Origin: Oscillospiraceae bacterium
GTDB taxonomy: Bacteria; Bacillota; Clostridia; Oscillospirales; UBA929
Assembly: GCA_009782475.1 (NCBI GenBank)
Contig: WRIZ01000006.1
Span: 1 to 64,000 of the forward strand
Reading direction: 5' to 3'
Length of the DNA: 64,000 bases
The notes below the pieces were generated by a model, which was given only the letters and a program-made list of their open reading frames with translations, ran no database searches and was not told the origin of the DNA. Both the position numbers and the translations under genes were made by a program. This document shows, one piece after another, positions 7,349-64,000 of the stretch; the stretch's first letter is position 1; each line of letters begins with the position of its first letter.

Positions 7349-7372
7349 AGACCCAATTACGAAAAATGGCAA
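7344..7372 (-). promoter_or_regulatory. Promoter of the FGGY kinase
   Basis: On the minus strand TTGCCA (7367-7372), 17 bases, TATAAT (7344-7349). The -10 overlaps the -10 of the opposite promoter at 7320-7348. Confidence 0.75.
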
Positions 7373-7390
7373 GGCGAAAGGATGGGAAAG

Positions 7391-8899
7391 ATGAATCAAA
7401 TCGTCGTTAACCTGAAAAAGACAAAACACACCGTTTCCCGCATGATCTACGGGCATTTTTCCGAGCACCTCGGGCGGTGTATATACGAAGGACTGTTTGT
7501 CGGCAAAGACAGCCCCATCCCCCATGTCAACGGTATGAGAACCGATGTGGTCAACGCCTTGAAAGAGATCAAAATCCCCGTCCTGCGCTGGCCGGGCGGC
7601 TGTTTCGCCGACGAATACCATTGGAAAGACGGCATCGGCGACCCGGCGGCGCGCAAGCGCATGGTCAACACCCACTGGGGCGGCGTTGTCGAGGACAACT
7701 CCTTCGGCACACACGAGTTTTTAGAGCTGTGCCGCCAGCTCGGGTGCGAGCCGTATATCAACGGCAATTTGGGCAGCGGGGAAATCGCCGAGATGCAGGA
7801 ATGGGTCGAGTATATGACCTTCAAGGGCGAATCCCCGATGGCCAATCTGCGCCGCGCAAACGGCCGGGAGGAACCGTGGGCGGTCAGCTATTTCGGCATC
7901 GGCAACGAAAACTGGGGCTGCGGCGGCAACATGCGCGCCGAATACTACGCCGACCTCTACCGCCGTTACGCCACCTATGTCCGCAATTACGGAGAAAACA
8001 AGATTTTCAGGATCGCCAGCGGCCCCGGCGCCGACTACGGGCATGACAACCTCAAGCAATGCTGGACGCGCACCATGATGGAAAACGCGCGGCAACTATT
8101 CGACGGCCTTGCCCTGCACTACTACACACTGACCGGGCACTGGGGCGAATCAAAAGGGTCGGCCACCGATTTTACCGAAGCTGAGTATTATACCACCTTA
8201 CGCAGATCACTTTGGCTGGATGAGGTGATCAAACAGCACGCGGCTGTCATCCGGCGGTTTGACCCGAACAACAGGGTCAAGATCATCTTCGACGAGTGGG
8301 GGACATGGCACGACTGCGAGCCGGGCACCAACCCCGGATTTCTGTACCAGCAGAACACCATGCGCGACGCGCTGGTCGCCGCAGCCTCGCTGCATATCTT
8401 CAACAGCCATGCAGACATCGTACATATGGCCAACATCGCGCAAACGGTCAATGTGCTGCAAGCCGTCATCCTGACCGACGGAGCCAAGATGCTGCTAACG
8501 CCGACCTATCATGTGTTCAACATGCTCAAAGGGCATCAGGACGCCGCCCTGCTCGAAAGCCATCAGATATGCGGCGCGGCGGGCGAAGGCGTCCCGCAGC
8601 TTTCCCATTCGGCGACCGTGAAAGACGGTGCGGTCACGCTGACGGTGTGCAATATGTCGGCGGATCAAACAGCGGAAGTCTCCCTCTCCCTGCTGGGTCA
8701 GCATGTAAAGGTGCAAGAGGCGGCGATGCTAACGAGCGATAGCATCGCTGGCAAAAACACCTTTGAGCAACCCTCAGCCGTCCAACCCGGTGACTTTAGC
8801 GGAATCCGGCTGGAGGAATACAACAAAACCGGAACACAGATGACGCTGAAACTCCCGGCCTGTTCGGTCGTGCGCCTGACGCTGGGGGAAGGGTCATGA
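7391..8899 (+). CDS. GH51 alpha-L-arabinofuranosidase
   Basis: 502 residues, the usual length for GH51, with no signal peptide, so cytoplasmic. It opens with the family pattern [16 protein letters not shown]. The acid/base is E173 in [11 protein letters not shown] and the nucleophile E302 in [12 protein letters not shown]-terminal beta-sandwich (about 390-502) completes the family layout. It removes arabinose side chains from imported arabinoxylan or arabinan oligosaccharides. The start at 7391 is preferred over 7382 because AAAGGA lies 8 bases upstream of it. The stop overlaps the GH127 ATG by four bases, so it is the first gene of a GH51-GH127-GH5 operon. Confidence 0.95.
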
Positions 8900-10737
8900 G
8901 AAAGCAAACCAATCTGCCGCTGAGCGCGGTGGCGGTGAACGACGGCTTTTGGAGCGGGATACAGAGCATCGTGCAAAACACCGTCCTGCCTTTACAGGCG
9001 GACATTTTGGAGGATAGGGAAAAGAGCCATGCCGTTGAGAATTTCCGCATCGCGGCGGGGGAGGCGGAAGGCGAATTTCAAGGGATGATTTTTCAAGACA
9101 GCGACGTTTACAAATGGCTGGAAGCCGTCTCCTATTCGCTGGCGGCTAAGCCGGATCAGGGTCTTAACGCCCGGGCGGATGAAATGATCCGCCTGATCGG
9201 CAAAGCGCAGCAAGAGGATGGGTATATCAACACACACTTCATCCTCAAAGAGCCGGATCGAAAATGGAGCAACCTGCGAGACGACCACGAACTGTATTGC
9301 TTCGGGCATCTGATCGAAGCGGGTGTTGCGCATGTTCAGGCAACAGGGAAGCGAAACCTGCTCAACATCGCCGTCCGCGCCGCCGATTTGATTTGTAAAC
9401 GCTTCGGTTCGGAAAAGACGCAGGGCGTCCCCGGGCATGAGGAGATCGAGCTGGCTCTGCTCCGCCTGTACCGGGTCAACGGGAAGAAAGAATACCTCGA
9501 AACGGCACGGTATTTTATAGACGAGCGGGGGCAGACGCCCGGCGATGAATACCGCCAAAGCCATTTGCCGGTGCGGGAGCAAACGGAAGCGGTGGGGCAC
9601 AGCGTCCGCGCCATGTACCTATACACGGCGATGGCCGACCTGGCGGCGGAAACGAATGACGTTTCCTTGGTTGACGCTTGCCGGACACTGCTGGACAACA
9701 TCCTGCAAAAGAAGATGTACATCACAGGCGGCGTTGGTTCGACCTTCCACGGCGAAGCGTTCTCGCCCGCCTATGACTTGCCGAACGACACCGTATACGC
9801 CGAAACCTGCGCGTCTATCGGGTGTTGCTTCTTCGCCCGGCGGATGCTGGAAATCAAGCCGGATGGGCAAATGGCCGACCTGATCGAACGACAGATATAC
9901 AACACCGTTTTGGCGAGTATGCGGCTGGACGGCAAACGGTTCTTTTATACCAATCCGCTGGAAGTCGTTCCCGGTCTTTCCGGCGTCGCGCCCGCCCACC
10001 AACACATCCTGCCGGAGCGTCCAGAATGGCACAACTGCGCCTGCTGCCCGCCCAATTTATCCCGCCTCATCCTCTCGTTGGGGCGGTATGCTTGGGGAGA
10101 GGGGGACGGAACCGTCTATGCCCATCTTTGGCTGGGCGGTTCGGCGCGATTTTCCGTTGGAGGCGGCGTTTCTGTGACGTGCGAGAGCGGGTATCCGTGG
10201 AAAGGGGATGTACTTTACACGCTATCCCCAACCTTTGCAAATGCAGAGTTTTGCTTCGCCGTTCACATCCCGGCTTGGTGCCGGGACGTTCAAATCTCGC
10301 TCAACGGCTCGCCGATCAACCCCGGGGAGAAAGACGGTTACATCACCATCAAGCGCGTTTGGGAGCAAGGGGATACCGTCAGGATCAGCGCGGCATTGCC
10401 CGTTCTCAGAACCTATTCGCACCCGGCGGTGAAAGGCAATGCCGGACAAACCGCCCTGCAAAGAGGGCCGATCGTCTATTGCTTTGAGCAGGAAGACAAC
10501 GGCGCGCCCCTCTCCGCCCTGCGTCTGCCGCCGGACGCCGATATAAACGAAGTTGAGGGTAAAATGCTGACCGGCATGGTGGTTTTAACAGCAAACGGGC
10601 TGCAAGAAGAGGGAAACACATCGGCTCTCTATACCGAGACCCGCCCCGCCGTAAAATCCGCCAAACTAACGGCCATCCCTTATTTCGCTTGGGGCAACCG
10701 AAGCCCGGGTGAAATGCGGGTTTGGATACGGGAATAG
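8896..10737 (+). CDS. GH127 beta-L-arabinofuranosidase
   Basis: 613 residues, no signal peptide, family DUF1680/GH127. Family opening NDGFWSG is followed by the alpha/alpha barrel and a C-terminal beta-rich part (about 420-613). The zinc and catalytic residues of the characterised Bifidobacterium enzyme have counterparts: E303 and C305 in AETCAS, and C383-C384 in NCACCPPN, of which C383 would be the nucleophile. It removes beta-linked arabinofuranose, as in plant hydroxyproline-rich glycoproteins. Pairing with GH51 lets the cell take both alpha- and beta-linked arabinose. It overlaps GH51 by four bases. Confidence 0.92.
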
Positions 10738-62562: not shown

Positions 62563-62700
62563 AGGGTTGTTCCCTCCTTGTGAATGGGTTTTTCTGTATG
62601 ATACACCCCGGTTGTTTCCAAAATGATTGCGATTTGTTAGAGATTTATTAAAATAACTTTTATTTTCGCGGACAATCTATTCAAAAGAAGGTGTCCGTGA

Positions 62701-62835
62701 TGAACGAGGAATTTGACTTCCCGGAGGAATCCGGTTTATCGGAGCAAGATCAATCGTCGATCCAAAATTTAGGCGCGGTGACGGCGCAGGGGGAGAAGTC
62801 GGCCATCCATTGCCTGACCATCGTCGGGCAGATAG
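62701..62835 (+). pseudogene. tepA: 5' fragment of a tepA-like (ClpP-class) gene, cut by an inserted element
   Basis: ATG 62701 follows GAAGGTG. The 45 codons end in the conserved TepA segment AIHCLTIVGQI, which in Bacillus TepA is followed by EGH and about 190 more residues. Here the match stops at 62835 and the frame runs into unrelated sequence to a stop at 62895-62897. The 3' part should lie beyond the far end of the element right of the window. TepA-like ClpP-fold proteins are linked to translocation and envelope quality control. If the element excises precisely, the gene would be restored. Confidence 0.75.
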
Positions 62836-62855
62836 TAATTGTAGACAATTATTAT
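62828..62855. other. Candidate attachment junction of the serine-recombinase element
   Basis: The tepA reading GGGCAGAT (62828-62835) passes into AGTAATTGTAGACAATTATT, which contains the inverted pair TAATTG/CAATTA (62837-62842 and 62847-62852). The stop of the recombinase gene (62852-62854) touches it. The crossover core should lie within 62828-62840. Confidence 0.6.
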
Positions 62856-64000
62856 AGCCGCCAGTGGATTTCAAGGTCAAAGTCTTTGGTCTGCTGATCC
62901 CGCTCGCCGATGTAGATGACATCCACGAAGGCATTTACGATTTCCCTGTTCAGCTCGGTAAAATTCTGATATTGGGCAATCATCTGGTTCACTTTGGATT
63001 CCGCGTCCTGTAAAGAAAAGAGCTTGTCCAGTTGCGCCTGTATATAGGAATATTCTTTGACAAGCTCTTCCTTCTTGACTTTCAGCCGCGCCGATATGAC
63101 GCTAAACTCCTCGCCGGTGATGACTCCGCTGGATTTATCGACGTAGGAATCGCTCAGAGCATCATCAATCTTTTTCTGCTCGAACAGGTTTTTGTCTTTG
63201 GATTTTTTGAGAGCGGCAGCCTCGCTGTTAAAGTCTCTGCTCTTTCTGGTATGTTTTTCAAGACGCCCGAAGTCACAGTAACGCTGGATAATCTCTTGAA
63301 TCTTTTCCGTGACCTCTCCGGCCAGCAAATCGTATTTCACCATAGCGCATTTGCACGACGAAATGCCGGATTTCCTTCCGGCACACCGTAAATACCTTGT
63401 GCCTTTATTGATCTTGCCGGAGCCGGACAATACCAATGATCTGCCACAGATTTTGCATTTGACAGTCCCGGCAAATATGTTGGCTACGGCGCGGTTCACA
63501 CTGGCATTTCTATTATTCAGTCCCCGGCTGGCTTTCGTGGCCTGAACGCGGTCATAATCCGCCTTGCTTACGATGGCTTCATGGACGCCATCAACGACGA
63601 TCCATTCGCCGGGAGTCTTTTCTTTGATAGATTTTGATTTATAGGTGGGCTTCCCATACCGGCCCTGCACTAGATCACCGGTATAATTGGGATTCCGTAG
63701 GATATGCCAAACCGAGTGGTCGCTCCACCGCAGTTCCTCAACGGCCACATTGTTTCGGTTTGACTTGAACCCCTTTGTCTTGCGGTATTTGCTGGGACAG
63801 GGAACACCGTCGTTGTTTAAGGCATTGGCAATGGCCTTGTTCCCGTAACCGGCCAGATACAACTGAAATATTCTTTTCACAACGGCGGCGGCGTCAGGGT
63901 CGGCGATGAGCCTGTGATTATCTTGAGGGTCTTTTATGTATCCATAAGGGGCAAAAGCGCCTGTGAATTGCCCCTGTTTCTTCTTATGCGTCATGACTGA
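62852..64000 (-). CDS. Large serine recombinase, 5' end beyond the window
   Basis: At least 382 residues; the frame is open to the right edge, so ATG 63994 is probably internal. The visible part has the Recombinase domain (GAFAPYGYIKDPQDNHRLI onwards), a zinc-ribbon with CKICGRS and CAGRKSGISSCKC, and a coiled-coil tail. The catalytic N-terminal resolvase domain with the active Ser is missing from view. Such enzymes integrate and excise phages and conjugative elements. Its 3' end abuts the cut tepA-like gene, which is the usual layout at one element end. Confidence 0.92.
   Translation of the reverse strand, partial: SVMTHKKKQGQFTGAFAPYGYIKDPQDNHRLIADPDAAAVVKRIFQLYLAGYGNKAIANALNNDGVPCPSKYRKTKGFKSNRNNVAVEELRWSDHSVWHILRNPNYTGDLVQGRYGKPTYKSKSIKEKTPGEWIVVDGVHEAIVSKADYDRVQATKASRGLNNRNASVNRAVANIFAGTVKCKICGRSLVLSGSGKINKGTRYLRCAGRKSGISSCKCAMVKYDLLAGEVTEKIQEIIQRYCDFGRLEKHTRKSRDFNSEAAALKKSKDKNLFEQKKIDDALSDSYVDKSSGVITGEEFSVISARLKVKKEELVKEYSYIQAQLDKLFSLQDAESKVNQMIAQYQNFTELNREIVNAFVDVIYIGERDQQTKDFDLEIHWRL

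Follow-up and report, generated by a model that had tools for sequence, protein, structure and literature searches.

Does the mobile element that splits the tepA gene of an Oscillospiraceae bacterium simply disrupt that gene, or does it work as a switch that restores the gene during sporulation? The question arises near the right-hand edge of the window, the 64,000-nucleotide stretch of DNA analysed here (bases 1-64000 of contig C6, which is 94,741 bp long in a genome of 49 contigs), where the beginning of a TepA-type gene runs into the 3' end of a large serine recombinase. An earlier note on this DNA had suggested that the element might excise precisely, as skin and SPbeta do in Bacillus. TepA is a ClpP-like protease with a part in spore outgrowth. 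It has been described as a germination protease whose expression is almost confined to sporulation (PMC5404308). In C. difficile tepA is a member of the sigma-F (forespore) regulon (PMC3789822), and SpoVT represses it in both B. subtilis and B. cereus (PMC5061766). SPbeta (PMC4191935) and the skin element of C. difficile (PMC5025042) excise in the mother cell, and other intervening elements also lie in mother-cell genes (PMC5595907, PMC10747680). Since tepA is a forespore gene, the skin model carried over unchanged would leave TepA missing from the compartment that needs it. By the accepted rule, these elements occupy genes of the mother cell, a terminal line in which excision is free of cost to the element.

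The 5' half of tepA, codons 1-44 (MNEEFDF...AIHCLTIVGQ), lies at 62700..62831 on the plus strand, with the ATG at 62700. The earlier note had counted 45 codons before the junction; 44 of these derive from tepA, whereas the 45th, ATA (Ile), already belongs to the element as its first codon and is replaced by GTG (Val) in the restored gene. A Pfam CLP_protease search of the window's genome gave two matches, one to a full-length clpP-type gene on contig C25 and the other to a partial gene at the extreme start of contig C38, which is the tepA 3' half (C38 ~184 to 747; PF00574, above cut-off). The first 123 bases of C38 are identical to the last 123 of C6, and the two contigs are therefore adjacent. 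About 60 bases past this overlap GGGCAG is followed by GTGGAAGGTCATCAG, which encodes Val-Glu-Gly-His; the Glu-Gly-His continuation predicted for the far end is thus present after a single Val codon, and the second copy of the junction expected beside the remaining tepA codons is found as GGGCAG. Joining the flanks at the common GGGCAG yields an unbroken TepA reading frame of 231 aa that shares 83% identity, along its whole length, with the intact gene of a species of the same genus (G009), so the split is not a matter of chance. The gene has the CLP_protease fold and the conserved IHCLTIxGQxEGH...TIHPVR, and is presumably the counterpart of B. subtilis TepA. Three species of the genus (G009, G010 and G011) carry tepA in one piece, as the proposal of a split gene had led one to look for, and with these whole-length homologues the 45-codon reading frame is a fragment of tepA rather than a gene of another family; a standing as an independent small gene is ruled out by them. 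The coding sequence is interrupted with both halves present, an identical short core stands at both junctions, joining restores the frame, and a large serine recombinase is encoded near one end. We regard this structure, a tepA gene split by an element whose geometry would allow excision, as secure. As judged from its sequence the element belongs with skin and gin among the intervening elements of sporulation genes, but its host gene is new for the group.

Measured core to core the element spans 31,970 bp, of which the window holds the left end (62832..64000); from there it runs on to position 94741 of C6 and through about 60 bp of C38. Its GC content is 0.445, against 0.54 and 0.52 in the flanks. 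The attL core GGGCAG occupies 62826..62831, and its second copy, at attR, lies at joined coordinate 94796. Recombinases of the large serine class require a two-base overlap and, typically, a dyad attP. We place the presumed crossover at the GG that forms bases 1-2 of the Gly codon (62826-62827), because only (A)GG is common to both junctions at one related locus (L074) and the Gly codon differs at its third base at another (L073). The element-side attP arm ATAGTAATTGTAGACA (62832..62847) is the dyad partner of TGTCTACGCTTACTAT at the element's other end, and the rebuilt circle junction, TGTCTACgcTTACTAT-ATGGGGGCAG-ATAGTAAttGTAGACA, is a dyad with GG at its centre. Its arms are complementary at 19 of 28 positions (binomial p ~2e-6), and across the four complete elements, the window's included, the attP dyads match at 18-21 of 28 positions (p 1e-5 to 4e-8). 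The GG core and dyad attP, as reconstructed, match what a large serine recombinase requires. The contig break near attR was considered as a trace of the excised form and rejected, as the contig overlap ends about 60 bp before the crossover.

The recombinase is encoded on the minus strand, and its stop codon lies at 62852, 20 bp past the junction. Its C-terminal part fills 62852..64000; the gene reaches to about contig position 64435, past the window, and the mechanically defined reading frame, which the window cuts at 64000, ends at contig position 64606. The protein has the Pfam domains Resolvase, Recombinase, Zn_ribbon_recom and DUF4368, and a YIRLS motif with its serine that is conserved with G008, a genome of the same genus. 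Its best sequence matches in the PDB are structures of SPbeta SprA (YokA), both by itself and as a fusion with another SPbeta protein (SprA-SprB), followed by TP901-1 integrase and TnpX, and its best PHROG match is an integrase family; no relative was found among IMG/VR viral contigs.

A search with this recombinase against 84,980 genomes returned 13 loci. All those of at least 58% identity (L072-L077, of which L072 is that of G008) sit in tepA at the same Gly-Gln codons, and those of at most 44% identity gave no tepA match. tepA is thus interrupted at one site in at least seven genomes, the window's own and six others. The records that hold the tepA-inserted recombinases are Oscillospiraceae MAGs, and the isolate names Th196, Lab288 and Emb289, as we read them, point to termite guts. 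The whole split gene lies on a single contig in G008, L073 and L074; for L075 and L076 the 3' half turned up on a different contig of the respective genome, with arms that match, and for L077 it was not found. The recombinase adjoins the 5' half of tepA in five genomes and the 3' half in two. In a tree built from in-frame recombinase sequences (L082 and L083 omitted), all seven tepA-site members group together at 100/100, with L078 as an additional, long-branched member of their clade. Homologues of tepA were found in 229 of 295 sampled genomes of the order, most of them uninterrupted among the matches listed. Partial tepA genes in G205, G093 and G261 were considered as further insertions and set aside, appearing instead to be cut by contig ends.

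The complete elements at this site measure 31,970, 7,250, 6,973 and 3,926 bp, and their cargo is wholly different from one to the next, with restriction-modification recurring in two. The cargo of the window's element comprises a type III restriction-modification pair, an SNF2 helicase partnered by a DUF4391 protein, a PemK/MazF-like toxin, regulators of the WYL and other types, a pair of small resolvases and an ATPase-like reading frame. By our reading, the element of G008 encodes a hybrid histidine kinase and a GGDEF response regulator, that of L074 one large secreted protein, and that of L073 appears to hold a type II restriction-modification set. Among the scanned reading frames of the window's element we found no capsid, portal, terminase or tail family (Pfam, PHROGs) and no relaxase or type IV secretion genes (Pfam), and a prophage or integrative conjugative element was rejected on that ground. 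Past the window, positions 74476-87862 of C6 hold type III restriction-modification genes, an SNF2 helicase (PADLOC HKD+Snf2 model), DUF4391, an HEC-07-like gene and a WYL regulator, possibly a composite defence island within the element.

Other genes are also split beside recombinases in the same bacterial family. spoIVA is interrupted by a recombinase-bearing element in G012 (L067:2893-4227 and 7358-9283, core GAGACCGAGGTATCNCC), G007 (L068:3590-4888 with L069:4444-6330) and G017 (L070:1-1020 with L071:3891-5846), and the last 85 codons of SpoIVA are fused in frame to a serine recombinase reading frame of ~550 aa. sigG is in pieces in G008 and G007. Three pieces on contig C1 of G008 tile the whole protein (105120-105440 and 122538-122980 on the plus strand, 36928-36728 on the minus strand), and the first of its breaks recurs in G007. 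The third piece, which forms one reading frame with a serine recombinase, lies ~86 kb off on the other strand, so that joining it would need an inversion. spoVT of G008 lies in two halves on contig C2 (151938-152036, plus strand, and 128281-127796, minus strand) with a common core, GGCGACCC, and a 3' half fused to a recombinase. The layout of the two G008 genes suggests inversion, and the spoVT arrangement may stem from an assembly error. Short cores are common to both sides of the spoIVA, sigG and spoVT breaks. Fragments of dpaA (L131:5325-5708, G017), sigK (L143:5296-5646, G012) and a manganese-catalase gene, probably cotJC (L119:1425-1760, G007), abut serine recombinases, as does a gene that by eye resembles a D-Ala-D-Ala carboxypeptidase (L078, after 2052).

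Several further breaks were noticed in the course of this survey. In G002:C72, G004:C19 and G006:C51 sigG runs to ...SEIGIS and then into unrelated residues, at the position of the second break of G008. A DUF255 thioredoxin-like gene is also cut in G017, and insertions are thus not confined to sporulation genes. An unnamed conserved gene (KEAVCVHTQKIYDACR, then DKDCLEDLRVYFT), with no Pfam or NCBIfam match, is apparently cut repeatedly after KIYDACR, beside a 488-aa recombinase class, in G008 (L117:8941-9162), G007 (L120), G017 (L132:8915-9055) and G011 (L152:10995-11228), and is apparently whole in G000 (L147:4709-5353).

What all tepA elements with readable sequence have in common is the recombinase and a reading frame of 43-49 aa. 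In the window's element this conserved frame (43 aa, contig 64500-64631, minus strand) is a candidate directionality factor, and it recurs directly upstream of the recombinase. Synonymous change per site exceeds non-synonymous change in 10 of 10 pairs, and the protein matches no NCBIfam family. In the skin element of C. difficile integration needs no more than a constitutive recombinase, and excision is governed by a directionality factor confined to one compartment (PMC5025042). Promoter consensus sequences were scored against dinucleotide shuffles in 15 set-by-model tests (Fisher p). In these tests, which count consensus matches in five or six sequences that are in part related, the regions upstream of the recombinases fit sigma-A (p 5.5e-7, 6/6) and gave no significant signal for the other sigma models tested, and those upstream of the small reading frame (five elements) fit sigma-G (p 1.2e-5) and sigma-F (0.003), with sigma-E (0.09), sigma-K (0.62) and sigma-A (0.17) not significant. 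The two main promoter results survive correction for the 15 tests. Upstream of tepA itself the sigma-F signal is weak (0.013), with a perfect match in G017. The recombinases of the spoIVA, dpaA and sigK elements gave no sigma-E or sigma-K signal, and two recombinases tested alongside them have sigma-A promoters.

A developmental role of the element is likely from its sequence and setting, and we consider it fairly probable that tepA is split by a 32-kb non-phage element that works as a sporulation switch and excises in the forespore, along the following steps. The recombinase would insert the element at the GG of the conserved Gly-Gln codons of tepA; made in growing cells from a sigma-A-type promoter, it would by itself favour integration. 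The 43-49-aa protein, encoded just upstream behind a forespore-type promoter sequence, would act as its directionality factor and drive excision in the forespore during sporulation, so that TepA is made where it is used. The host would meanwhile carry the cargo, including the restriction-modification genes of two elements, at little vegetative cost. The recurrence of the insertion in seven genomes, the forespore-type promoter sequence of the candidate directionality factor and the other split sporulation genes strengthen the case for a switch. An element that left the chromosome in the forespore would be lost to later generations unless it inserted itself again, and the excised circle could do so after germination. 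A bolder form of this scheme, which we offer tentatively as possible rather than probable, is a germ-line switch: excision by the forespore-controlled factor, retention of the circle in the spore and re-integration into tepA after germination through the vegetative recombinase, with several forespore and mother-cell genes of the family taken apart and rejoined once in every life cycle.

A mobile genomic island might instead exploit the conserved tepA codon as a harmless place to insert, simply knocking out a gene whose loss only delays outgrowth and excising, if at all, independently of sporulation. In favour of this, the elements move between species: the recombinases of L075 and L076 differ by a dS of 0.73, whereas the tepA 3' halves of the same genomes are saturated at synonymous sites. 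G007, at 99% complete, yielded no tepA match although other sporulation genes are present, which also speaks for this reading. Yet six of the seven genomes have two tepA halves that are each open and complete, and in genus pairs the dN/dS of the 3' half is 0.05-0.10, interrupted and intact genes alike. The selection tests leave the insertions undated, so that intact halves could reflect recent insertion, and selection as proof of tepA function is weakened both by this and by the recent horizontal movement in L075/L076. The tiling of complete proteins by the spoIVA, sigG and spoVT pieces and the forespore-type promoter sequence of the conserved small reading frame also argue against disruption. 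We judge simple disruption of tepA unlikely. The host of the window, with complete spoIVA and sigG, is probably a spore former.

Less probable still, and to our minds rather improbable, is a switch of the skin type in which excision is an exclusively mother-cell event and the element stays in the chromosome of the spore. It would explain how the element persists, and the studied cases behave in this way (PMC4191935, PMC5025042) or occupy mother-cell genes (PMC5595907, PMC10747680); however, tepA being a forespore gene, excision in the mother cell would not supply the spore with TepA, and the regions upstream of the small reading frame fit sigma-G and sigma-F rather than sigma-E and sigma-K. 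That the arrangement is an artefact, either a chimeric contig or a 45-codon gene in its own right, is scarcely credible, for although the right junction in the window's genome depends on the 123-bp overlap of two contigs, the same break recurs in seven genomes, related genomes have the gene in one piece, and the split gene on one contig in G008, L073 and L074 already refutes it.

Excision of the tepA element in the forespore, the reading we prefer, may be set beside the systems in which excision has been studied. Like gin in gerE of Bacillus cereus ATCC10987 (PMC5595907), a ~30-kb element without phage genes that splits a sporulation gene and encodes serine recombinases, the tepA element has a GC content below that of its host, a short core repeat and precise frame restoration. 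gerE is a mother-cell gene, gin has three recombinases whereas the tepA element has one large recombinase and two small resolvases, and the cargo of the tepA element consists of restriction-modification and other defence-like genes. Excision of gin is proven, that of the tepA element predicted. In the skin element of Clostridioides difficile (CD1231, CD1234; PMC5025042) a constitutive large serine recombinase and a separate small directionality factor that sets the compartment are proven, and the small protein of the tepA element is a candidate counterpart. That element is prophage-like, interrupts sigK and leaves the chromosome in the mother cell, a terminal line, in contrast to the forespore-type promoter sequence of the candidate factor and the forespore target gene found here. 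SPbeta in spsM of Bacillus subtilis (SprA, SprB; PMC4191935) has the closest solved recombinase by sequence, and its precise excision in sporulation restores the gene, as joining restores the frame of tepA. The likeness to skin and SPbeta drawn in the earlier note holds for precise restoration of the frame and probably not for the compartment, tepA being a forespore gene. yin in yabG of Clostridium botulinum and vfbin in spoVFB (PMC10747680) also occupy conserved sporulation genes, and in yin the recombinase lies beside the 5' half, as in the window's element; both are prophage-like and in mother-cell genes, and yin comes from a single strain, whereas the tepA site has been used repeatedly across species.

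An element that recurs at one specific site of a forespore gene departs from the mother-cell rule and raises the question of how it is inherited. The seven recombinases of known target site, together with the candidate directionality factor, form a natural set. Where several essential sporulation genes of one genome are fragmented, an annotation pipeline may mislabel the bacterium as non-sporulating.
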